Origin: a virus
Strand: one strand, 5' to 3'
Virus record (IMG/VR): IMGVR_UViG_3300010970_000187
Coordinates: 1 to 28,843 of that record
Length of the DNA stretch: 28,843 nucleotides
A program made the position numbers and the translations under genes. The notes under the pieces are model-generated. The model saw nothing but the letters and a program-made list of their open reading frames with translations. It did not search any database and was not told where the DNA came from. Of the stretch, positions 2,349 to 24,069 are shown piece after piece (position 1 is the stretch's first letter; the number at the start of each line of letters is the position of its first letter).

Positions 2349-2421
2349 TACCCCTGGCAGGAATCGAACCTGCGACGCATGGCTTAGAAGTCCATCGTTC
2401 TGTCCACTGAACTACAGAGGT
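2349..2421 (-). tRNA. tRNA-Arg (anticodon TCT)
   Basis: The 73-nt cloverleaf has acceptor stem ACCTCTG/CAGGGGT with one G-U pair. The anticodon loop CTTCTAA gives TCT, and the T arm is GCAGG-TTCGATT-CCTGC. CCA is not encoded. It would read AGA/AGG. Confidence 0.92.
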
Positions 2422-2425
2422 GTAG

Positions 2426-2498
2426 TGCCCCTCACTGGATTTGAACCAGTGCTGTATGGATTTTAAGTCCACTGCCTCTACCGCTGGGCTAGAGGGGC
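2426..2498 (-). tRNA. tRNA with anticodon TAA (Leu), short variable loop
   Basis: The 73-nt cloverleaf has a perfect acceptor stem GCCCCTC/GAGGGGC and discriminator A. The anticodon stem is GTGGA/TCCAT with loop CTTAAAA, so the anticodon is TAA (Leu UUA). T stem ACTGG/CCAGT. The variable loop is only about 5 nt, whereas bacterial tRNA-Leu normally has a long extra arm. The identity is therefore uncertain. Confidence 0.8.
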
Positions 2499-2502
2499 CT
2501 TG

Positions 2503-2583
2503 TCCGTGATGTTGGAATCGAACCAACCATGTCATATGACGGGGGATTTACAGTCCCCTGCTCCACCTTGCAGCATATCACGG
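2503..2583 (-). tRNA. tRNA-Tyr (anticodon GTA)
   Basis: This 81-nt gene has acceptor stem CCGTGAT/ATCACGG. The anticodon loop CTGTAAA gives GTA. A long variable arm containing CGTCATATGACATG is present, as expected for bacterial tRNA-Tyr. CCA is not encoded. Confidence 0.92.
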
Positions 2584-2660
2584 TGGTACATCTGGTAGGA
2601 CTTGAACCTACGGCTCTCTGCATATAAGGCAGGTACTCTAACCAACTGAGTTACAGATGT
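2584..2660 (-). tRNA. tRNA-Ile (anticodon TAT), CCA encoded
   Basis: Acceptor stem ACATCTG/CAGATGT, anticodon loop CTTATAT (TAT), T arm GTAGG-TTCAAGT-CCTAC. The gene is followed by CCA at 2586-2584, unlike its neighbours. It reads AUA, a rare codon in many actinobacteria that an AT-rich phage would use more often. Confidence 0.9.
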
Positions 2661-2664
2661 ATAG

Positions 2665-2738
2665 TGTCCCAAGTAGGACTCGAACCTACGACTACCGAAT
2701 TATGAGTTCGGGGCTCTAACCAACTGAGCTATTGGGAC
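2665..2738 (-). tRNA. tRNA with anticodon CAT (Met, or Ile2)
   Basis: The 74-nt cloverleaf has acceptor stem GTCCCAA/TTGGGAC, anticodon loop CTCATAA (CAT) and T arm GTAGG-TTCGAGT-CCTAC. There is no initiator-type mismatch at the top of the acceptor stem. It is therefore an elongator Met or a lysidine-modified Ile tRNA; sequence alone does not settle this. Confidence 0.9.
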
Positions 2739-2744
2739 TAAACC

Positions 2745-2906
2745 TTATCCTGCTATTACTCCAGTTAAGAATCCAATAAGAAACAAGCCAATACCAATAA
2801 CCCAATGATAAGATTTTTGTAGATGATCTTGAATTATCTTATATCTGATGTTTTCAGGTACTGATACAAACTCATCGTCACCTAAATCAATTTTATACTG
2901 ATTCAC
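2745..2906 (-). CDS. Small membrane protein (53 aa)
   Basis: The gene starts at GTG 2906-2904 behind AAGGAG and ends TAA 2745. It encodes about 30 charged residues (VNQYKIDLGDDEFVSVPEN) followed by one C-terminal helix (WVIGIGLFLIGFLTGVIAG). The GTG overlaps the stop of the upstream zinc micro-ORF (GTGA). A tail-anchored membrane protein of unknown role. Confidence 0.6.
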   Translation of the reverse strand: MNQYKIDLGDDEFVSVPENIRYKIIQDHLQKSYHWVIGIGLFLIGFLTGVIAG

Positions 2907-3007
2907 TTATGCTCCTTAGAATGTCTAGATAATGTTTCATGTGCAAAGATTCCTCGTCTTACATCCAATTCTTTCTTACAAATTGGACATATAACAACTC
3001 TACTCAT
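2903..3007 (-). CDS. Zinc-finger micro-protein (34 aa)
   Basis: The sequence MSRVVICPICKKELDVRRG continues with HETLSRHSKEHK, giving a CPIC pair followed by histidines in classical C2H2 spacing. It probably binds one zinc and could contact nucleic acid. The ATG lies inside the end of the upstream ORF (8 nt overlap), and its stop overlaps the next GTG. The family is not recognised. Confidence 0.6.
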   Translation of the reverse strand: MSRVVICPICKKELDVRRGIFAHETLSRHSKEHK

Positions 3008-3092
3008 CGCCTTGATCTACTCCGTATGTCATTTGAAAATAACAAACTATCCAACCAACAACAAAAAATGCTATTCCGAATAATGGGTTCAT
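3000..3092 (-). CDS. Membrane micro-protein (30 aa)
   Basis: The sequence MNPLFGIAFFVVGWIVCYFQ forms one transmembrane helix, followed by a short acidic tail (MTYGVDQGDE). AGGAG lies about 11 nt upstream of the ATG. A longer in-frame extension to 3215 runs back through tRNA-Gln and is not used. It forms a three-gene micro-operon with 2903-3007 and 2745-2906, inserted between tRNA genes. Confidence 0.5.
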   Translation of the reverse strand: MNPLFGIAFFVVGWIVCYFQMTYGVDQGDE

Positions 3093-3131
3093 ATTACTAT
3101 TGTACTCCTCTCGTTCTCTAGTGTCAAATCG

Positions 3132-3202
3132 CTTCTCCTCCTGGATTCGAACCAAGATACTCGCCTCCAAAGGGCGATGTCCTACCGTTAGACGAAGGAG
3201 AA
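3132..3202 (-). tRNA. tRNA-Gln (anticodon TTG)
   Basis: This 71-nt gene has a perfect acceptor stem TTCTCCT/AGGAGAA and discriminator G. The anticodon stem is TCGCC/GGCGA with loop CTTTGGA, so the anticodon is TTG. The T arm is CTTGG-TTCGAAT-CCAGG. Confidence 0.92.
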
Positions 3203-3206
3203 TTAG

Positions 3207-3278
3207 TAGCCCCAACGGGAGTTGAACCCGTCTTGCCAGATTGAAAATCTGGAGTCCTAACCGATAGACGATGGAGCC
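3207..3278 (-). tRNA. tRNA-Glu (anticodon TTC)
   Basis: This 72-nt gene has acceptor stem GGCTCCA/TGGGGCT and anticodon stem CCAGA/TCTGG with loop TTTTCAA (TTC). T arm GACGGG-TTCAACT-CCCGT. It lies 4 bp from tRNA-Gln. Confidence 0.92.
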
Positions 3279-6970: not shown

Positions 6971-6979
6971 TTATCCACA
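6971..6979 (+). promoter_or_regulatory. DnaA box (perfect consensus)
   Basis: TTATCCACA matches the bacterial DnaA-box consensus exactly. It lies between two minus genes, 5 bp upstream of the TATACT box of gene 6844-6954. Confidence 0.55.
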
Positions 6980-6981
6980 GG

Positions 6982-7146
6982 TTACTTGAAAGGTTTGTCT
7001 GTCATTTCTTGTATATCCTTGATCAATTTATTAAGGTTTGGCATACTAGATTTAGGTGGTTTTGTGTGAGATTTATGTTTGACTATGACGAAATATACTA
7101 TCAGAGGACAGACAACTCCTGTTACTAACCATCCCAAAATATCCAT
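6982..7146 (-). CDS. Small N-anchored membrane protein (54 aa)
   Basis: Residues 1-23 form a transmembrane helix (MDILGWLVTGVVCPLIVYFV), followed by a basic, Pro-rich linker and a charged helix (LNKLIKDIQEMTDKPFK). TATACT 7153-7158 lies 6 nt before the ATG, so it is probably leaderless. Perfect DnaA boxes lie immediately upstream. Holin- or Rz-like in outline, but no family is recognised. Confidence 0.6.
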   Translation of the reverse strand: MDILGWLVTGVVCPLIVYFVIVKHKSHTKPPKSSMPNLNKLIKDIQEMTDKPFK

Positions 7147-7167
7147 AAATGTAGTATATCACCATAG

Positions 7168-7188
7168 TTATCCACAGGTTTATCCACA
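7168..7188 (+). promoter_or_regulatory. Pair of perfect DnaA boxes
   Basis: TTATCCACA occurs at 7168-7176 and again at 7180-7188, both in the same orientation with 12-bp spacing. The identical arrangement recurs at 21632-21652. Confidence 0.6.
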
Positions 7189-17839: not shown

Positions 17840-18123
17840 TAGTACTCCTCTTCTGGTAGCCAAAACGATAGGTGGTGAGCATCTACAATATATCGTGCAG
17901 GGGCTTCAGTTTCTCCACGCCAAGTAATCTGAAAGTCATTTACTTTAGGCAAGGAAATCATTCGGTCATAGTCTTCTTCATAGTATGCGTCAATAGCCTC
18001 TATGCAAGGGGCAACCATTTCTGCGGGTACTGGTGGATAGTGATTACCCTTTAAGTGATAAAGAATCTGAGTTTCTAAATCCAAGACGGTATCCTGTATT
18101 CCTAGTGCTGTAACTGAACCCAT
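17839..18123 (-). CDS. LKGNHYPPVP-family phage protein (94 aa)
   Basis: The product has MGSVTALGIQDTVLDLETQI, LYHLKGNHYPPVPAEMVAPC, IEAIDAYYEEDYDRMISLPK and YIVDAHHLSFWLPEEEY. The LKGNHYPPVP...C..AI block with a terminal HHL..W recurs in actinophage and actinobacterial small proteins. Function unknown. Confidence 0.72.
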   Translation of the reverse strand: MGSVTALGIQDTVLDLETQILYHLKGNHYPPVPAEMVAPCIEAIDAYYEEDYDRMISLPKVNDFQITWRGETEAPARYIVDAHHLSFWLPEEEY

Positions 18124-18124
18124 A

Positions 18125-18340
18125 TTACTTACCCCCTACATTTCCATTACGATAGAATATCTTAGTATGCATTTTGCCATTAGGCTCTGATAGGTTAATT
18201 GTGCGATATTCTACTGCATCTCCAAAGTCTGAAAATCTGGAAAAAACTTCCACGGCACTTAATGCATTGTCGTATCTGCCACTCCAACTAGGGGACTTAT
18301 CATTATCATTGGTACAAGTAACTGCGTATAAATATTCCAT
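18125..18340 (-). CDS. Unknown small protein (71 aa)
   Basis: The product MEYLYAVTCTNDNDKSPSWS continues GRYDNALSAVEVFSRFSDFG and DAVEYRTINLSEPNGKMHTK. Strand-helix-strand layout. TAATG start overlap; its stop is 1 nt from the next ATG. Not recognised. Confidence 0.65.
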   Translation of the reverse strand: MEYLYAVTCTNDNDKSPSWSGRYDNALSAVEVFSRFSDFGDAVEYRTINLSEPNGKMHTKIFYRNGNVGGK

Positions 18341-18483
18341 TAGTTAGCCTCTTTCGTTGTAAATAATGCACCTTCATTAAGTAAGCCTAATTCGATATTA
18401 AACTTCTCATCTTCATTTGCTTGGGCTAAGTCTATCCAACCCGCACCTTCATTGTCAATTCGGAAAATCTCTACATATCCCAT
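18340..18483 (-). CDS. Unknown small acidic protein (47 aa)
   Basis: The product MGYVEIFRIDNEGAGWIDLA continues QANEDEKFNIELGLLNEGAL and FTTKEAN. TAATG overlaps at both ends. Its MGYV start resembles that of 21115-21222, but nothing further aligns. Confidence 0.6.
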   Translation of the reverse strand: MGYVEIFRIDNEGAGWIDLAQANEDEKFNIELGLLNEGALFTTKEAN

Positions 18484-18698
18484 TATGCACCTACCTTTAC
18501 TGCAATAGTTCGGTAAGTTCTTTTACCAAAATTATTGTAACCGCTATTAGGTGCAACCTCTACAAGATAGGTATCGCAACCCTCATACCAAACTGCGTGA
18601 GGGTGAGGCTCTGCACTTACAATTTCACCTTGCAAGGTGCGTGAGTGATAATTTGTTCCCACTAATAGGGACTGGACTGAGTATATATTTGCTGACAT
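18483..18698 (-). CDS. Unknown protein (71 aa), first in operon
   Basis: The product MSANIYSVQSLLVGTNYHSR continues TLQGEIVSAEPHPHAVWYEG, CDTYLVEVAPNSGYNNFGKR and TYRTIAVKVGA. Beta-rich throughout. Follows a TGTCAG-type promoter and a CRP-like site. Unknown function. Confidence 0.65.
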   Translation of the reverse strand: MSANIYSVQSLLVGTNYHSRTLQGEIVSAEPHPHAVWYEGCDTYLVEVAPNSGYNNFGKRTYRTIAVKVGA

Positions 18699-18731
18699 AG
18701 TGTCACCACTTTCTTTTTGTTTATATAAATA

Positions 18732-18775
18732 ATCTTACACTACTGGACTGACAAATACAAATCCAAATTCGGACA
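18732..18775 (-). promoter_or_regulatory. Promoter TTGTAT-17-TAAGAT with TGTCAG and TGTCCG
   Basis: Minus strand: TTGTAT (18760-18755), 17 bp, TAAGAT (18737-18732). TGTCAG 18753-18748 lies 10 nt upstream of the -10, TGTCCG lies at 18775-18770 and TGTCTG at 18784-18779. Confidence 0.65.
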
Positions 18776-18791
18776 TATCAGACATTTTGAG

Positions 18792-18807
18792 TGTGAGGTT
18801 AATCACA
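18792..18807. promoter_or_regulatory. Perfect CRP/GlxR-like site
   Basis: TGTGAGGTTAATCACA fits TGTGA-N6-TCACA exactly, centred about 74.5 bp upstream of the predicted 18698 transcript start. The gap also holds CGACACGCC boxes near 18871 and 18904 and GACGTCCC near 18921. Confidence 0.6.
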
Positions 18808-18945
18808 TTTCTTTTTAGATTTATTTAATTTTACTAGGCAAGCCTATCAGATAAATCTCTAAAAGTCAAGGCGACACGCCGTTACATATATAACATTATT
18901 ATAACGACACGCCCGAACGCGACGTCCCAAAATTGTTGAAGTTTT

Positions 18946-18973
18946 AAGCAGTTTTAAATCGTGCTTAGGATTT
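18946..18973 (-). ncRNA. H-type pseudoknot RNA motif, copy 7
   Basis: Minus strand: stem 1 AAATC 18973-18969 with GATTT 18960-18956. Stem 2 AAGCA 18966-18962 with TGCTT 18950-18946, a compensated change from GAGCA/TGCTC. It begins 6 nt past the stop of 18979-19131. Confidence 0.65.
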
Positions 18974-18978
18974 TTATT

Positions 18979-19131
18979 TTATTTTTTAATTCGTTCAGTA
19001 CGCAAAGCAACTTGCAAGCGACGAATTTCTTTTTCTAATTGAATTGTACGATTCCAGAATGCAACCATCATTCCAACCGATCCAGATAGAGCAATAGTTA
19101 TTCCAATTAGTGTTCCAGTGTCTAGTATCAT
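18979..19131 (-). CDS. N-anchored membrane protein with basic helix (50 aa)
   Basis: Residues ~1-24 form a helix in the membrane (MILDTGTLIGITIALSGSVG then MMVAFW). A charged helix follows (NRTIQLEKEIRRLQVALRTE) with heptad spacing. This N-in anchor plus coiled coil resembles small spanin or holin-accessory proteins, but that is only an outline match. The overlapping longer frame in another register lacks sense composition. ATGA overlap with 19128-19298. Confidence 0.65.
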   Translation of the reverse strand: MILDTGTLIGITIALSGSVGMMVAFWNRTIQLEKEIRRLQVALRTERIKK

Positions 19132-19298
19132 TTTTCACACGCCTCTCTAAATACTTCAAATTTAAAATTTGGATTATCTGCCTCAAACATTGAGCCAAAG
19201 TCATCAACTAAATCGTGATAAGTAAATTCATCACCTATCAGTTCTTTATAAGATGAAAGAATTTCAGCAACTGCTACATAGTCTTTACGAGTCATCAT
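19128..19298 (-). CDS. MTRKDYVAVAEIL-family phage protein (56 aa)
   Basis: The product MMTRKDYVAVAEILSSYKEL continues IGDEFTYHDLVDDFGSMFEA and DNPNFKFEVFREACEK. The TRKDY...A.IL...F..LV.DFG.MF..DNP.F....F..AC pattern is a very common small phage protein family. Function unknown. Confidence 0.75.
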   Translation of the reverse strand: MMTRKDYVAVAEILSSYKELIGDEFTYHDLVDDFGSMFEADNPNFKFEVFREACEK

Positions 19299-19504
19299 TA
19301 GTCGGCCACCTTTAGAATTGCATAAGAGCCATTTTCATTTATTTCATCTAGTGCAGGCTGAATGCGTGGTGAAAGCAACTCCTTTAGCATTGACTCAAGC
19401 ATTTGAATTTGCATTTCATCAGGTAGTGAGAGCAAACGAATTCCGATAGGATGAGTTTCATCAACCTCGGTTACGAATTTTAGAGAGTGTTCAATTTTTA
19501 CCAT
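19298..19504 (-). CDS. Unknown helical protein (68 aa)
   Basis: The product MVKIEHSLKFVTEVDETHPI continues GIRLLSLPDEMQIQMLESML and KELLSPRIQPALDEINENGS. TAATG overlaps at both ends. Not recognised. Confidence 0.65.
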   Translation of the reverse strand: MVKIEHSLKFVTEVDETHPIGIRLLSLPDEMQIQMLESMLKELLSPRIQPALDEINENGSYAILKVAD

Positions 19505-19689
19505 TAGAGAGAAGCCTTTCCTTTAAGTGTTCCTGAGATAGAGAGGGCGTCGCAAGCGACTTTTACGGATACGCCAACAGGGAGAGTGTTAGGGTATGTT
19601 GAGATGAATTGAGCAACTGCACCTTTTGAAGGTAGAGCGATTTTTTTAGTAGAACCTGAAAAGGTTTCTAGTGTTACAGTGTAAGTCAT
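19504..19689 (-). CDS. Small beta protein (61 aa), paralogue of 22591-22764
   Basis: The product MTYTVTLETFSGSTKKIALP continues SKGAVAQFISTYPNTLPVGV and SVKVACDALSISGTLKGKA. It aligns along its length with 22591-22764 (VTL/ITLTS, G.T..I.L..K, V.VKV.CD.L.I.G.L.G.A). AAGGAAG ribosome site. Unknown role. Confidence 0.7.
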   Translation of the reverse strand: MTYTVTLETFSGSTKKIALPSKGAVAQFISTYPNTLPVGVSVKVACDALSISGTLKGKASL

Positions 19690-19722
19690 TTAGTGACTTC
19701 CTTTCGTTTAATTGATAAGACT

Positions 19723-19744
19723 ATCTTATCATTAGGGGCTGACA
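19723..19744 (-). promoter_or_regulatory. TGTCAG-N10-TAAGAT promoter
   Basis: Minus strand: TGTCAG (19744-19739), 10 nt, TAAGAT (19728-19723). A CRP-like site lies 29 bp further upstream. Confidence 0.5.
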
Positions 19745-19754
19745 TTTTGGCTAC

Positions 19755-19806
19755 TTATTTGCTAAGGCTCACTGTGATTCTAGTCACATTTATTTGCTTA
19801 GGCTCA
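19755..19806. repeat. Direct repeats flanking a CRP-like site
   Basis: On the minus strand TGAGCCTAAGCAAATAA (19806-19790) and TGAGCCTTAGCAAATAA (19771-19755) are 35 bp apart. Between them is the perfect CRP-like palindrome TGTGATTCTAGTCACA (19773-19788), centred about 64.5 bp upstream of the predicted 19689 start. Related words recur on the plus strand at 22176-22220. Confidence 0.55.
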
Positions 19807-19844
19807 TTAGCCAATTTGTCCTTTATTTAATTGTTATAGTAGTA

Positions 19845-19873
19845 ATACTAGCAGATGAAACCGAAAAAAGCAA
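19845..19873 (-). promoter_or_regulatory. Promoter TTGCTT-17-TAGTAT
   Basis: Minus strand: TTGCTT (19873-19868), 17 bp ending TGC, TAGTAT (19850-19845), a second upstream start for the 19689 operon. Behind it are CGACACGCC (19876-19884), a one-mismatch CRP-like site (19895-19910) and GGGACGTCCC (19912-19921). Confidence 0.55.
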
Positions 19874-19944
19874 ATCGACACGCCGTATATTAAATGTGTT
19901 TTAGGTCACACGGGACGTCCCACTTTTTGCAATAAATAATTAAT

Positions 19945-20046
19945 TTATTCTTTTGCAAATAAATAAAACCCGCTAATTAAACAGATCATCGAAAACCAAA
20001 ACAATGCGTTACCGCTTACAAAAAATGTTTGATAAAAACTATTCAT
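19945..20046 (-). CDS. Membrane micro-protein (33 aa)
   Basis: The product MNSFYQTFFVSGNALFWFSM continues ICLISGFYLFAKE, one transmembrane helix. It overlaps the previous stop by 8 nt; AGG lies 11 nt before ATG. Unknown. Confidence 0.55.
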   Translation of the reverse strand: MNSFYQTFFVSGNALFWFSMICLISGFYLFAKE

Positions 20047-20218
20047 TATCTTTTCCTAACTCTGCTAAATCATTTGCAAATACTTTTGCAATTCTCATTT
20101 TTTCTTCATCTGGTGTACAAGCCCAGAGATAGCCTAGAAAATAGTGTGTGCCAGAATCATAGTCGTTACCACGAATCTGACGGCTCATAGAAAGTACATC
20201 TCTTAGTTCAATACTCAT
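20039..20218 (-). CDS. Unknown helical protein (59 aa)
   Basis: The product MSIELRDVLSMSRQIRGNDY continues DSGTHYFLGYLWACTPDEEK and MRIAKVFANDLAELGKDNE. Helical and charged, with a THYFLGYLWACTP centre. TAATG start. Not recognised. Confidence 0.65.
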   Translation of the reverse strand: MSIELRDVLSMSRQIRGNDYDSGTHYFLGYLWACTPDEEKMRIAKVFANDLAELGKDNE

Positions 20219-20367
20219 TATTCTACAATCTCCTCAATGTGAAAAGCATTAAACTTTTCAAGTTCATTTTCACTAAGTGGCATTAGTGTTTTATTAAGTG
20301 CGAATACGGCACTTAGTTCATTTTCTGCTTCGCATACATACGAAACGATTACATTATATTTAGTCAT
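20218..20367 (-). CDS. Small unknown protein (49 aa)
   Basis: The product MTKYNVIVSYVCEAENELSA continues VFALNKTLMPLSENELEKFN and AFHIEEIVE. Strand-helix-strand layout. Its 3' end supplies GGAG for the next gene. Confidence 0.6.
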   Translation of the reverse strand: MTKYNVIVSYVCEAENELSAVFALNKTLMPLSENELEKFNAFHIEEIVE

Positions 20368-20531
20368 TACTTGACTCCTTTATATAGAAAATCCCAAGCC
20401 TTACGGCAGATTAAAATTGAGTTGCAATTATCGCAACAGATAGACCCTTCAGGGTTAAAGTTTAAATCATATGAATCTACATATGAAGTTGTTTTTCCGC
20501 AGATACTACGGAGTGAATATAGTGTACTCAT
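20367..20531 (-). CDS. Cys-rich small protein (54 aa)
   Basis: The product MSTLYSLRSICGKTTSYVDS is followed by GSICCDNCNSILICRKAWDF. Five Cys (C, CC-x2-C, C) could form a zinc ribbon. AAGGAG at its 3' end serves gene 20218-20367. TAATG overlap with it. Confidence 0.65.
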   Translation of the reverse strand: MSTLYSLRSICGKTTSYVDSYDLNFNPEGSICCDNCNSILICRKAWDFLYKGVK

Positions 20532-20654
20532 TTATTTGAGTCCTTTCGTTCTTTTGATTATCCGCTTGTGATTACAAACGGAGCAGATTAGGTGGAAAGT
20601 ATTTTTATACCAACGCTCTTTCCAAAGTAGCGAATTACATAGAGGGCAACTCAT
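20532..20654 (-). CDS. Zinc-ribbon micro-protein (40 aa)
   Basis: The product MSCPLCNSLLWKERWYKNTF is followed by CSVCNHKRIIKRTKG. Two CxxC pairs form a complete ribbon, with a basic tail suggesting nucleic-acid contact. TAATG start overlap. Confidence 0.65.
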   Translation of the reverse strand: MSCPLCNSLLWKERWYKNTFHLICSVCNHKRIIKRTKGLK

Positions 20655-20830
20655 TATTTTGATACCTTCCAATCTCTCCACATAGGGAGTCTTTCTGGGT
20701 CGGTATCGTCATACCAACGCTCAATATTTTGCTCACAATCTTGGCAGAAAGTGAATTGCTCATCTCCAACTTCTGAGATAGCAGGAACGAATGGAGTGTG
20801 CTCTTTGCACATTGTGTTTAGTGAAGTCAT
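20654..20830 (-). CDS. Zinc-binding small protein (58 aa)
   Basis: The product MTSLNTMCKEHTPFVPAISE is followed by FCQDCEQNIERWYDDTDPER and LPMWRDWKVSK. C-x2-H and C-x2-C are candidate ligands. The CQDCEQNI.RWY..D..RL..W..W pattern is seen in other phage ORFans. AAGGAAG ribosome site. Operon start. Confidence 0.7.
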   Translation of the reverse strand: MTSLNTMCKEHTPFVPAISEVGDEQFTFCQDCEQNIERWYDDTDPERLPMWRDWKVSK

Positions 20831-20885
20831 TTTGGACTTCCTTTCTTTAAGGGGCTTACTTCTTTTTCAACCTTCTATACATAGA

Positions 20886-20930
20886 AGTATAGCAGGGGGG
20901 TCTGACATTTAGAGGGGTATAAATCGGACA
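20886..20930 (-). promoter_or_regulatory. TGTCCG/TGTCAG extended -10 promoter
   Basis: Minus strand: TGTCCG (20930-20925), TGTCAG (20907-20902), 10 nt, TGC-TATACT (20891-20886). The two TGTC elements are 23 bp apart, as in the 21494 promoter. A CTTCTATacATAGAAG-type palindrome covers the likely start (20872-20887). Confidence 0.6.
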
Positions 20931-20940
20931 TTTGCGACTT

Positions 20941-20972
20941 TGTGAGGTAGGTCACATATGATGTAGGTCACA
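20941..20972. promoter_or_regulatory. Tandem CRP/GlxR-like sites
   Basis: TGTGAGGTAGGTCACA (20941-20956, perfect) abuts TATGATGTAGGTCACA (20957-20972, one mismatch) in direct 16-bp tandem, about 70 and 86 bp upstream of the predicted 20830 start. Confidence 0.6.
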
Positions 20973-20987
20973 CGAACACCTGTTCGA
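20972..20987. promoter_or_regulatory. LexA/SOS-box-like palindrome
   Basis: ACGAACACCTGTTCGA matches the actinobacterial SOS box TCGAAC-N4-GTTCGA at all but the first base. It abuts the CRP-like tandem. ACGTCCC follows at 20993. Confidence 0.55.
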
Positions 20988-21013
20988 AAATCACGTCCCT
21001 TTTTTGCAAGCTT

Positions 21014-21115
21014 TTATTTTATTTTTTCTAAAATCTTTTCTAATTCTTTTAGTTGTTTTAAATCAAGATGATCTAAATTAATTGCATCAGCAAATCCAAA
21101 TATATCTTTTTCCAT
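21014..21115 (-). CDS. Helical micro-protein (33 aa)
   Basis: The product MEKDIFGFADAINLDHLDLK continues QLKELEKILEKIK, a short leader and one leucine-rich charged helix. GGAG lies 8 nt before ATG; TAATG overlap. Confidence 0.55.
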   Translation of the reverse strand: MEKDIFGFADAINLDHLDLKQLKELEKILEKIK

Positions 21116-21222
21116 TATTTATATTCTCCTTTCTTTATTAGTTCATCTAGCATTGTTGCTAATGAATCTTCTGGCTCGTCTGCCAGATAGTATTCTAGTT
21201 CTAAAGATTTTACATATCCCAT
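21115..21222 (-). CDS. Acidic micro-protein (35 aa)
   Basis: The product MGYVKSLELEYYLADEPEDS continues LATMLDELIKKGEYK. Its 3' end supplies AAAGGAG for the next gene. TAATG overlaps on both sides. Confidence 0.55.
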   Translation of the reverse strand: MGYVKSLELEYYLADEPEDSLATMLDELIKKGEYK

Positions 21223-21494
21223 TATCGGTTACACGCAACCCCTTCTGAGTGTAAGCCACTCTCAATATGATTTTTTGCTATGCAATTTTTTTGCAATTCG
21301 TGAAACGAAACGCATTTCATTTCGTGGTAAGCGATGTAGTCTTTATGGACTACCTTGTCGCATTGTTGGCAGAAGTGCCATTTTTGGTTGTGCTTACGCA
21401 CTACTTGATTTTCTACAATTTCATATCTATCTACAAACTTTGCAGAGTGTGTGCAAGAGATTTCTTTGCACTTATTTACTTTAGTGTTAGTCAT
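21222..21494 (-). CDS. Cys/His-rich protein (90 aa), likely zinc finger
   Basis: Candidate ligands are CKEISCTH (residues ~9-16), FCQQC with HKDYIAYH (~41-56), CVSFH (~60) and C near 71 and 88. They could form two zinc sites. The remainder is basic. AAAGAAAGG precedes ATG. First gene of the operon, next to the divergent control region, so a DNA-binding regulator is possible but unproven. Confidence 0.65.
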   Translation of the reverse strand: MTNTKVNKCKEISCTHSAKFVDRYEIVENQVVRKHNQKWHFCQQCDKVVHKDYIAYHEMKCVSFHELQKNCIAKNHIESGLHSEGVACNR

Positions 21495-21549
21495 TTTAGA
21501 CCTAACCTTTCTTTGAGATAACCTTTATCTCTTATTCTTTATACTATGT

Positions 21550-21594
21550 ATCCTAACACATACTACTGACATTTAGTAGGGTACAAAACGGACA
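21550..21594 (-). promoter_or_regulatory. TGTCCG/TGTCAG promoter of 21494
   Basis: Minus strand: TGTCCG (21594-21589), TGTCAG (21571-21566), 10 nt, TAGGAT (21555-21550). A one-mismatch CRP-like site TGTGA-TAAAGG-ACACA lies at 21612-21627. Confidence 0.55.
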
Positions 21595-21631
21595 TATGGG
21601 ATATATAGGATTGTGATAAAGGACACATTAG

Positions 21632-21652
21632 TTATCCACATAGTTATCCACA
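21632..21652 (+). promoter_or_regulatory. Pair of perfect DnaA boxes
   Basis: TTATCCACA at 21632-21640 and 21644-21652, in the same orientation and with the same 12-bp spacing as the pair at 7168-7188. Confidence 0.6.
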
Positions 21653-21664
21653 GGCACGTGGTGG

Positions 21665-21730
21665 TGTGGTACATATCACATACGACACACCCTTGCTAGG
21701 CTTGTATTTGTCGGTATGACCTGTTATACT
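21665..21730 (+). promoter_or_regulatory. Promoter TTGTAT-17-TATACT with CRP-like site
   Basis: TTGTAT (21702-21707), 17 bp ending TGT, TATACT (21725-21730). TGTGGTACATATCACA (21665-21680, one mismatch) is centred about 64.5 bp upstream of the predicted start, followed by CGACACACC. Confidence 0.6.
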
Positions 21731-21780
21731 TACAGTATTAGAAAGTTAGAGAAGGTCTCTAAACTAGAAAGGGTCAGACA

Positions 21781-21903
21781 ATGACTAACAGAATATACGA
21801 AAAAGAATTATCACCTACTCAGATAGAGATGTTAGGCTATGTAGCCTGCTCATCAGGTTGCGGTAGAGTTACCGCTTGGACTACCTGCGTTATGTGTAAA
21901 TGA
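21781..21903 (+). CDS. Small Cys-rich protein (40 aa)
   Basis: The product MTNRIYEKELSPTQIEMLGY is followed by VACSSGCGRVTAWTTCVMCK. C-x3-C and C-x2-C form a likely zinc ribbon at the C-terminus. AAAGG lies 9 nt before ATG. It is transcribed away from the 21494 operon, making this a divergent control region. Confidence 0.65.
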   Translation: MTNRIYEKELSPTQIEMLGYVACSSGCGRVTAWTTCVMCK

Positions 21904-21926
21904 TCTAATCAATAGATATACACAGG

Positions 21927-22012
21927 TTATCCACAGGCACGTCCCGTGTGGTGTAAATCACATACGACACGCCGTGTTGGTGCTTGACTTTTGGCGGTAT
22001 ATGGTGTAGTAT
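21927..22012 (+). promoter_or_regulatory. DnaA box, CRP-like site and promoter TTGACT-17-TAGTAT
   Basis: TTATCCACA (21927-21935), then CACGTCCC, TGTGGTGTAAATCACA (21947-21962, one mismatch), CGACACGCC, -35 TTGACT (21984-21989), 17 bp, -10 TAGTAT (22007-22012). This repeats the order of the 21644-21730 region. Confidence 0.6.
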
Positions 22013-22291
22013 TCCATACATAGAATTAAATAGTGAGTAAGTAAGCGTGACCTATATCACATAGGTTGAGCGTCCAAATAGTGATACTACTAGCAAGTAT
22101 ACTAGACAGTACGAGATTTACCTGCTAGACTTACATAGTAAGAAAAATTAAATAAAGAAATCCTAGTGAGCCTATTGAGCCTACCAAATAAACCGCATAG
22201 CGGGTGAGCGTAGCAAATAAATAGCAAATAACCTAGGTCAAGGAAAGCAATAAGCACAAGGCTTATTACATTAAAGAAAGGTGGTCATTAA
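22013..22291 (+). promoter_or_regulatory. Long leader with second promoter, CRP-like site and repeats
   Basis: No gene is visible. CGTGACCTATATCACA (22046-22061) is a one-mismatch CRP-like site. A second promoter has TAGACA (22103-22108), 17 bp ending TGC, and TAGACT (22126-22131). TGAGCCTACCAAATAA (22176-22191) and TGAGCGTAGCAAATAA (22205-22220) repeat words found at 19755-19806. AAAGAAAGGTGG precedes the next ATG. Confidence 0.5.
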
Positions 22292-22486
22292 ATGACTACA
22301 TTAAATACATACAAGGGTCTTTCACTAGACCAAAAAATTACTATCGCTGCTCAAATGGTAGCAGACGGAAAACTAGTATCCTTTAGAGGTGCTAGTGCAG
22401 ATACCTACATTAAGGTACAAAAACTTGCTAATAAGATTAAGCAAGATAGAGAATTCCCACAATGCCCTTGTGGAGAGTGCGACTAA
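22292..22486 (+). CDS. Small protein with C-terminal Cys cluster (64 aa)
   Basis: The product MTTLNTYKGLSLDQKITIAA continues QMVADGKLVSFRGASADTYI, KVQKLANKIKQDRE and ends CPCGECD. Helical body with a three-Cys end. AAAGG ribosome site; TAATG overlap with the next gene. Unknown. Confidence 0.7.
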   Translation: MTTLNTYKGLSLDQKITIAAQMVADGKLVSFRGASADTYIKVQKLANKIKQDREFPQCPCGECD

Positions 22487-22590
22487 TGCACATCTATCTA
22501 TGCGATAATTGCTCAACACTAGCAACCGTTATCCAAGAGGGTAACACAATTAAAATTAACAAATGTCTATGCACTACTAAGGAGAACTAA
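22486..22590 (+). CDS. Zinc-ribbon-like micro-protein (34 aa)
   Basis: The product MHIYLCDNCSTLATVIQEGN ends TIKINKCLCTTKEN. CDNC and CLC are four Cys ligands. TAATG start. AAGGAG at its 3' end serves the next gene, which follows immediately. Confidence 0.6.
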   Translation: MHIYLCDNCSTLATVIQEGNTIKINKCLCTTKEN

Positions 22591-22764
22591 ATGAAAATTA
22601 CACTAACATCTATGGCGGGTAACACTCACAATATCAACTTGATGACTAAGCAAGAGGTATTAGATTTTATTGAGATATATCGCTCCACATTACACAAAAA
22701 TCAACGAGTCAAGGTAACTTGCGACCTGCTCGGAATAGACGGTTATTTGCAAGGCGTTGCATAA
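22591..22764 (+). CDS. Small beta protein (57 aa), paralogue of 19504-19689
   Basis: The product MKITLTSMAGNTHNINLMTK continues QEVLDFIEIYRSTLHKNQRV and KVTCDLLGIDGYLQGVA. It aligns over its whole length with 19504-19689 on the other strand. Last gene of the three-gene plus operon. Confidence 0.65.
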   Translation: MKITLTSMAGNTHNINLMTKQEVLDFIEIYRSTLHKNQRVKVTCDLLGIDGYLQGVA

Positions 22765-22772
22765 CTCTTAGC

Positions 22773-22809
22773 GGGTAGTACTATCCAAGTCAAGGCGGGT
22801 GGTACTACC
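22773..22809. repeat. Two related palindromes
   Basis: GGGTAGTACTATCC (22773-22786) and GGTGGTACTACC (22798-22809) lie in a direct repeat beginning GCGGGTRGTACTAYC with ~24-bp period, just after the operon. Operator or RNA hairpin pair. The rest of 22810-22950 is AT-rich with no gene. Confidence 0.5.
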
Positions 22810-22952
22810 AAGCAAGATCATCCCTATATTATGTGCTCACTATATTTTATACAATTGTTTTTCAATTTTATGTATCATACACAATCTAAAAATATTCAGA
22901 TTTTGGTAAAACCCAATTTTTATAATTTTTCAGATTTTGCCAGGGATAAGGG

Positions 22953-22960
22953 TGTATAAT
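22953..22960 (+). promoter_or_regulatory. Extended -10 promoter, leaderless
   Basis: TG-TATAAT (TATAAT 22955-22960) ends 6 nt before ATG 22967. Confidence 0.6.
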
Positions 22961-22966
22961 AAATCT

Positions 22967-23155
22967 ATGGGAATATTAGACAATCTAGAAAATGCCTGGG
23001 ACGAAGACTTCTCCTTTGAATCCAAACCTATAGCTAATACTGACGCTATGGGAAGAGAAGTGTTTTGGGATGATATCGGAAGACCTGATCCTGAAAACCT
23101 GTCTGTAAAAATATTTTCAGAAACCTGTTGTTCTGACTGTAGCTGCAAACCTTAA
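22967..23155 (+). CDS. Acidic protein with Cys-rich tail (62 aa)
   Basis: The product MGILDNLENAWDEDFSFESK continues PIANTDAMGREVFWDDIGRP and ends CCSDCSCKP. The start is ATG 22967, because an upstream ATG would lie before the promoter. It ends 2 bp from the convergent stop of 23158-23355. Unknown. Confidence 0.6.
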   Translation: MGILDNLENAWDEDFSFESKPIANTDAMGREVFWDDIGRPDPENLSVKIFSETCCSDCSCKP

Positions 23156-23157
23156 TA

Positions 23158-23355
23158 TCACCATTTGTTGATAGGGCATTTTGCTTGTTTGAGAGTAGAC
23201 TTCATTTTCATAAAACATCCACATTTAGAGCACCTTTGAGTATGTTTTCTAAATGCAGGGCACTCATTACATATTTTCAAACGGGACTCAATTAACTCCT
23301 GATCGCTTCTTGGCTGACTAGGATCAAACAAGTCAAAAAACCCTACATCAGACAT
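23158..23355 (-). CDS. Cys-rich phage protein, DUF6171-like (65 aa)
   Basis: The product has MSDVGFFDLFDPSQPRSDQE, LIESRLKICNECPAFRKHTQ and RCSKCGCFMKMKSTLKQAKC, PINKW. The order CxxCP...CxxCGCxMxxKxxLxxAxCPxxKW is a widespread small phage and bacterial family (DUF6171, from memory). Likely one zinc site. Function unknown. Confidence 0.78.
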   Translation of the reverse strand: MSDVGFFDLFDPSQPRSDQELIESRLKICNECPAFRKHTQRCSKCGCFMKMKSTLKQAKCPINKW

Positions 23356-23358
23356 ATA

Positions 23359-23553
23359 TTACTCTGAGATAGCTTCAATAAAGAAGTTTGCAAGGTTTTG
23401 TGCATCAATGCTGATCTTCTTCTTATTCAAAACAATTGTTGCATTAATTTCTTCTTCAGACAAACCTTGCTCGGATCCGTTATTCTTTAGATTAGTGAGC
23501 ATCTTAGCTTCAATCTTTTCGAGCACAGTGTCTGTATTAATTGTGATATCCAT
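23359..23553 (-). CDS. Helical protein (64 aa), unknown
   Basis: The product MDITINTDTVLEKIEAKMLT continues NLKNNGSEQGLSEEEINATI and VLNKKKISIDAQNLANFFIE. Charged, helical. AGGAG before ATG. Pairs with 23158-23355 in one transcript. Confidence 0.65.
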   Translation of the reverse strand: MDITINTDTVLEKIEAKMLTNLKNNGSEQGLSEEEINATIVLNKKKISIDAQNLANFFIEAISE

Positions 23554-23593
23554 TTTATTCTCCTATTTGGTATATGACGTATAGTCGTTATCT

Positions 23594-23599
23594 ATTATA
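23594..23599 (-). promoter_or_regulatory. Extended -10 promoter of 23553
   Basis: Minus strand: TG-TATAAT (TATAAT 23599-23594), with TGTCTG 13 nt upstream. The remaining gap up to 23760 carries a GCCGAA/TTCGGC hairpin near 23684-23702 and no gene. Confidence 0.55.
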
Positions 23600-23764
23600 C
23601 ACTAACCCTTATCAGACATACTAGGATGCTTGTCATCCTCTATTTGTCTATAGGTGGTTTGGCAACCTCTATCCCGCCGAATTTAAAATCGTTTTTTCGG
23701 CTGAACTTTTTTCGAGTTTTAATTGATGTTTATTATTTTATTTAATCATTTTGTTTTAAATACT

Positions 23765-23772
23765 GATATAAT
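23765..23772 (+). promoter_or_regulatory. Extended -10 promoter of 23782
   Basis: TG-A-TATAAT (TATAAT 23767-23772) lies 9 nt before ATG 23782, giving a leaderless or near-leaderless mRNA. Confidence 0.55.
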
Positions 23773-23781
23773 AATCTTACT

Positions 23782-24069
23782 ATGTCAGCGCAAGAATGGG
23801 CAGGGCTAATACTTACATTATTGTCAATTACTGGCATAATACTTAGTGGCATACGCTGGTATATCGGTTTACAAATAAAGCCAATTAAAGAGGCGGTAGA
23901 AGACATTCGATCTGAAACAAAAACTAACGGCGGATCTTCAATGCGTGATGAAATAAAATCTATAAAAGCAGAACAAGAAGAGGCCAAAGAGCTTCGCAAA
24001 GCAACAAGTGATAAACTAGATCATCTATATGATTTATTTGTAGAGTACGTTTCTAGACCATCCAAATAA
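23782..24069 (+). CDS. N-anchored membrane protein with coiled coil (holin-like)
   Basis: This 95-residue protein has one transmembrane helix in residues ~6-29 (WAGLILTLLSITGIILSGIR, WYIG), followed by KPIKEAVEDIRSET, NGGSSMRDEIKSIKAEQEEA and LDHLYDLFVEYVSR. A membrane anchor plus NGGSSMRDEI coiled coil is found in actinophage proteins annotated as holins or DUF2746. It sits alone upstream of the tail genes with its own promoter. A lysis role is likely but inferred. Confidence 0.7.
   Translation: MSAQEWAGLILTLLSITGIILSGIRWYIGLQIKPIKEAVEDIRSETKTNGGSSMRDEIKSIKAEQEEAKELRKATSDKLDHLYDLFVEYVSRPSK

Follow-up and report, generated by a model that had tools for sequence, protein, structure and literature searches.

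Where LexA operators are discussed in phages, it is mostly as switches for prophage induction. The mycobacterial LexA box reads TCGAAC-N4-GTTCGA, the CRP operator reads TGTGA-N6-TCACA, with a GlxR form of TGTGANNTANNTCACA, and LexA and CRP jointly control colicin genes, whose LexA boxes are situated at the core promoter. In Streptomyces venezuelae the LexA box takes the form tCGAAC-N4-GNNCGa (PMC9380542). A phage precedent is Bacillus thuringiensis phage GIL01, where host LexA represses the phage promoter P1; GIL01 is temperate, with a box centred at +17 and a gene for a LexA helper, gp7 (PMC4551915). On a LexA-CRP composite in phages, the arrangement described here, we found no publication in the open-licence literature as represented by titles and the openings of abstracts.

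The window, as we call the whole 28,843-base stretch of DNA analysed here, is a virus record that encodes a GP88-family protein (PF17338), a DUF932 protein and a collagen-like tail fibre. Relatives of its GP88 protein among annotated phages were nearly all from Mycobacterium and Streptomyces phages, at less than 60% identity, and none was confirmed among the genome contigs searched. The window also holds a six-tRNA-gene cluster (2349-3278, minus strand) and a phage-borne Hsp20/alpha-crystallin protein (539-955). Ahead of six small open reading frames (Table 1) stands ACGAACACCTGTTCGA, which departs at one base from the mycobacterial LexA box, that is, from TCGAACNNNNGTTCGA. A sequence-only reading had put this fit at 15 of 16 positions; the palindrome and its coordinates are exact, but four free positions had been counted, and the proper figure is 11 of 12 specified bases. 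No other site in the window has one mismatch or fewer, the seven others listed having three each, and the core CGAACN4GTTCG occurs exactly only here. The same reading had the box abutting two tandem CRP-like sites. Both CRP-like sites are real, one exact and one with a single mismatch, but box and distal site in fact overlap, base 20972 being common to the two, and it is at this very base that the box shows its only mismatch. On the minus strand, in the direction of the operon that begins at 20830, one meets first the LexA-like box, next the distal CRP-like site, whose first base is the box's last, then the proximal CRP-like site and finally the predicted extended -10.

Table 1. Positions in the window of the LexA-like box, the neighbouring CRP-like sites, the predicted promoter and the surrounding small genes
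Feature	Position	Strand	Remarks
LexA/SOS-box-like operator	20972..20987		TCGAACAGGTGTTCGT on the minus strand
Distal CRP/GlxR-like site TATGATGTAGGTCACA	20957..20972		1 mismatch; shares base 20972 with the LexA-like box
Proximal CRP/GlxR-like site TGTGAGGTAGGTCACA	20941..20956		0 mismatches to TGTGANNTANNTCACA
Predicted -10 TATACT with upstream TG (extended -10)	20886..20891	-	prediction; no good -35 hexamer
Operon gene 1, 58 aa, cysteine pairs	20654..20830	-	function unknown; no significant PHROG of known function
ORF 2, 49 aa, GTG start, zinc-ribbon-like cysteines	20532..20681	-	phrog_37290 (unknown function), E 0.0023
ORF 3, 54 aa	20367..20531	-	from the ORF list
ORF 4, 49 aa	20218..20367	-	from the ORF list
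ORF 5, 59 aa	20039..20218	-	from the ORF list
ORF 6, 33 aa, hydrophobic, doubtful gene	19945..20046	-	from the ORF list
Last small ORF of the preceding operon, 33 aa	21014..21115	-	LexA-like box starts 27 bp beyond its end

Scored with a matrix built from 31 boxes of the likely host order, the window site was equalled in 2 of 200 dinucleotide-shuffled copies of the sequence, so the single window site is by itself suggestive only. CRP/GlxR-like sites with at most two mismatches number 14 in the window against 2.05 expected, a count reached in none of 100 shuffles. Next to one of these (19895-19910) the palindrome GGGACGTCCC directly adjoins at 19912-19921, a placement that resembles that of the LexA-like box, and GACACGCC/GGCGTGTC and ATGTCCG elements recur near CRP-like sites both in relatives and in the window, for example at 21966-21973. 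An RNA hairpin or terminator at the palindrome was considered and rejected: the minus strand lacks a following T-run, the outermost pair of the composite palindrome is A-A or T-T, the remaining arm changes are uncompensated outside the leader cassette discussed below, and the region folds no better than its shuffles (z +1.04).

The pairing of the two sites recurs among viruses. An IMG/VR scan in which a CRP-like site had to come directly after the box, the shared base being left open, gave the composite with a 1-bp overlap in 15 contigs, against none for a reversed-pattern control. The free base between the half-patterns is T in 16 of 16 sequences, the window included, and this T is the first base of the CRP half-site; as that half-site demands T at the overlap, the window's single LexA-box mismatch is the price of the overlap. 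When gaps were allowed there were 54 matches, with a gap of 1-2 in 19, a gap of 18-19 in 28 (mostly the leader cassette, GAGC-stem-CAAATAA) and any other gap from 0 to 30 in only 7. At least four distinct contexts show the 1-bp overlap, and the phages concerned fall into two groups: the window's own, at 37-39% GC, and a second at 45-47% GC (L162-L166, L168, L172 and L173). Contigs of the second group share 66-87% nucleotide identity with the phages LanE43AprE7 (E7) and AprF5 (F5), whose two records are OX376640 and OX376641; these relatives of the 46% GC composite contigs carry exact CRP-like sites, and neither genome has a LexA-like site of 10 bits or more. The exact full tandem stretch of the window has no second copy in IMG/VR; annotated phage records gave no megablast match to window 18000-24000 and no useful match to the composite stretches. 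In 296 genomes of the host order the composite was found 0 times, so it is phage-specific within what was searched. This recurrence of a LexA/CRP pair in unrelated viruses suggests that the viruses sense the state of the host cell.

The geometry of these composites is likewise regular. The LexA-like centre lies 15 bp upstream of the CRP-like centre, and the latter is predicted at -65.5, -75.5 or -86.5 in 9 of 14 composite sequences, the window among them, in a count that treats closely related contigs apart; L164 and L174 join them only with an alternative -10, and in L167, L168 and L171 the CRP-like centre falls outside these positions. Steps of 10 bp fit the expectation for a class I activator bound to one face of the helix, insofar as the predicted promoters are correct. 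For the window, transcription is predicted to start near 20878, from a -10 region that is conserved in relatives, and the predicted centres are about -101.5 for the LexA-like box and about -86.5 and -70.5 for the CRP-like sites, the box standing 157 bp ahead of the start codon. On this promoter model the box centre, near -101, lies beyond the CRP sites and at a distance that is large for a repressor, so LexA is unlikely to work simply by occluding the promoter.

Since the box is far from the -10 and overlaps an activator site, the most likely effect of LexA is to hinder CRP. The 16-mers of the palindrome and of the distal CRP/GlxR-type activator site share one base, and the footprints of host LexA and the activator would overlap further. 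In an undamaged cell, box-bound LexA would hinder CRP at the adjoining site and transcription would be lowered or delayed; host damage or phage replication would activate RecA, LexA would be lost and CRP could act fully, so that expression would require CRP plus the absence of LexA. We infer that LexA and CRP bind here, that they compete, and in which direction the effect runs; what we observe is that the sites are there and how they are arranged, that they return in two groups of phages, and that SOS genes of the host order carry the same motif. We favour hindrance of CRP activation with relief by SOS over classical promoter blocking, and judge from the sequence that it has about an even chance of being right. 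The two CRP-like sites of the window complicate the matter, as a block at the distal site could even favour the proximal one, and the argument from overlap fails where the box lies 59-89 bp from a CRP-like site, as it does in several other contexts. The sequence-only reading had gone further and supposed that the box would place all six small genes under host DNA-damage control. In its favour, the motif is that of LexA in the host order and sits beside CRP-like sites at a preferred spacing; against it, the box is not a conserved feature of the operon and its predicted position is near -101. A counter-defence role for the six small genes, also proposed, finds no support, the small proteins matching no PHROG of known function.

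LexA might instead bind without hindering CRP: it would position CRP at the proximal site, exclude CRP from the distal one, insulate the operon from the preceding one, or simply occupy a spare target. We think this unlikely, while recognizing that several observations agree with it, among them the distance of the box from the predicted start, the wider box-to-site spacings just mentioned and the 16-bp step between the tandem CRP-like sites, whose joint occupancy is not obvious. The box also lies 12-34 bp beyond the end of the preceding open reading frame in 8 of 13 sites examined, a figure to which several related contigs contribute the same gap. Against it, a 1-bp overlap that returns in at least four contexts and two phage groups favours direct interplay of the two proteins, and hindrance of CRP by LexA is the reading we carry forward.

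Who binds the two sites was approached through the likely host. A 16S pattern led to named 'Ca. Planktophila' and related actinobacteria, and in eight of eight 'Ca. Nanopelagicales' genomes there is one LexA over the cut-off, and two boxes stand ahead of lexA, the one exact and the other a single base off. Boxes also stand ahead of recA (read directly in L179, L182 and L183, and through a shared neighbour gene in L177) and ahead of a dnaE2-type polymerase (L175, L180 and L181), the recA and dnaE2 assignments at other loci being made by analogy. Genome-wide, boxes with at most one mismatch number 42 in the eight genomes against 34 in the control, not clearly enriched, so the evidence from the host is positional. 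The window's 16-mer is present letter for letter in one host-order genome (G057). As for the question whether host LexA has a matching consensus, the same motif is indeed used in the likely host order, although we infer the host itself. Phages E7 and F5 were isolated on 'Ca. Planktophila' LanE-43 (PMC10202952). The LanE-43 genome (G051) carries the lexA boxes. For the window's own group there is a weak host link in L196 (G251 contig 161), a 4.7-kb phage-like contig that belongs to this group and was binned with a genome from the order Nanopelagicales.

A Crp-type protein is over the cut-off in seven of the eight host-order genomes, and its helix-turn-helix reads QLVGASRETVNKALADF, which we take to be GlxR-like. 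Among the phage relatives, 50 whole records yielded neither a LexA DNA-binding domain over the cut-off (one match, in G017, was sub-threshold) nor a Crp-type helix-turn-helix, and a phage-coded LexA or CRP was accordingly rejected as the binder. With both domains missing from the phage relatives and present in the host order, host proteins are the likely binders. The two assignments are not equally secure. Exact TGTGAN6TCACA occurs 414 times in 89 phage loci against once in the control and is nearly missing from eight host-order genomes (3 sites against 2 in the control); ideal CRP-like sites are thus far commoner in phages than in the likely host, which makes the CRP assignment less secure than the LexA assignment. 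On motif and distribution, the palindrome is probably a host LexA operator.

The LexA-like palindrome also appears in a second setting. Leaders of related phages contain a cassette of two GAGC-stem-CAAATAA copies around a palindromic slot (window 19755-19805, minus strand, and 22177-22220, plus strand; L015:1871-1921; L045:6364-6412; and others), in which the slot holds a CRP-like site, a LexA-like palindrome, GNRA-type short hairpins, GATAAC..GTTATA or other sequences. Thirty distinct cassettes with slots of at most 20 nt were found in the window and L002-L089; the slot is CRP-like in 14 of them and LexA-like in two (L045 and L068), while LexA-like slots from L199 upwards were retrieved through that very palindrome and their number is biased. 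In the 14 CRP-slot cassettes the outer and middle stems covary, with 14 cells changed on both sides against a shuffled mean of 3.6 and none of 500 shuffles as high; pairs with a double change number five, a value reached in 25 of 500 shuffles, and the CRP-like stem is invariant. Rfam gave no match in window 19600-22400 at E up to 1. The cassette may be a structured leader RNA, possibly new, whose tip doubles as an operator.

Phages commonly carry operators of unknown regulators, and the palindrome could serve such a protein, encoded by the phage or by the host but distinct from LexA, that shares the motif by coincidence; its presence in a leader slot where other palindromes also occur is what one might then see. 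We consider this quite improbable, since the motif, the A..T inside N4 and the tolerated changes (for example TCAAAC..GTTCGA and TCGAAC..GTTCGG) all parallel the boxes at lexA, recA and dnaE2 in the host order.

Conservation of the box was followed in a related set of 89 loci, the window plus 88 related IMG/VR loci (1.46 Mb); these are redundant, and distinct contexts among them were counted by similarity clustering. LexA-like sites with at most one mismatch number 28 against 0 for the reversed pattern, and matches of 15 bits or more number 38, in 15 distinct contexts, against 0 on reversed sequences. Of the 88 related loci, 50 were picked for the length of their contigs and searched as whole records; 16 of these contain 19 LexA-like sites between them, whereas the control gave 6 sites spread over 4 records. 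Once related loci are counted, the motif is far beyond chance. Two of the 15 contexts have no CRP-like site within 300 bp and appear coding; the LexA-like sites at L118:9489, L108:9981 and L110:17947 have no CRP-like site within 150 bp. That the palindrome is a functionless accident or relic is very unlikely, for the shuffles that reach its score and its absence from most orthologous gaps are set against the 38-to-0 excess in related loci, the empty composite control scan, and a fixed spacing and overlap with CRP-like sites.

At the orthologous position the picture is patchier. Homologues of the 58-aa gene were found in 73 of 104 sequences searched (the window, the 88 related loci and 15 composite loci), which reduce to 45 distinct upstream regions once near-duplicates are removed. 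Four of the 45 have a LexA-like site, as the composite in three (the window, L171 and L174) and as a weaker site further upstream in L008; in the same 45 regions a CRP-like site is present in 31 and a DnaA-box-like site in 23. As to whether the box is kept at the same gap in related phages, the composite is present there in three of 45 regions. More broadly, the palindrome is kept in part and recurs elsewhere in the relatives' genomes, but patchily. Its rarity ahead of this gene, together with E7 and F5 lacking a LexA-like site, indicates a box that is dispensable or young; it is recurrent yet exchangeable. DnaA-box-like sites often take its place upstream of the 58-aa gene in relatives. The window itself has six exact DnaA-box-like TTATCCACA sites (6971-7188, 21632-21652 and 21927-21935; 0.44 expected, none of 100 shuffles as many), and these possibly mark an origin or DnaA-controlled promoters.

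In 51 records including the window, many of them fragments, we found neither a tyrosine integrase (Phage_integrase) nor a large serine recombinase (Recombinase), so reading the box as a prophage-induction switch, as had been suggested, is not supported. SOS could be raised instead by phage replication or by host damage. Usually such sites are discussed as induction switches; here the LexA operator is joined to an activator site, in phages that give no hint of integrating and that belong to two lineages, one of which has relatives in culture together with their host. If hindrance of CRP by LexA holds, phage gene expression in an abundant freshwater group follows the physiological state of the infected cell. 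Tentatively, and as a suggestion we would still rate below even, phages that seem not to integrate and that infect the most abundant freshwater actinobacteria may draw on exchangeable operators for host regulators (CRP, LexA and DnaA), with the LexA/CRP overlap forming a two-input gate for energy state and DNA damage, a unit that would have spread between unrelated lineages.

Colicin genes share with this locus the logic of a metabolism-sensing activator combined with an SOS repressor; the difference is that at this locus LexA-like box and CRP-like site overlap. With the actinobacterial SOS box the locus has in common a 16-bp palindrome with the same core, which stands ahead of lexA, recA and dnaE2 in the likely host order; here, in contrast, a phage carries it, and it stands on the upstream side of an activator site, at a distance from the -10 and not over the core promoter. 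Like GIL01 (PMC4551915), the window offers a phage promoter bearing a probable host LexA operator, but its box is centred near -101 of the predicted start and paired with CRP-like sites, and the search for an integrase was negative. Host LexA on a phage promoter and the actinobacterial LexA motif are thus already known; what appears new, as far as the open-licence literature shows, is the fusion in phages of a LexA box with a CRP site.
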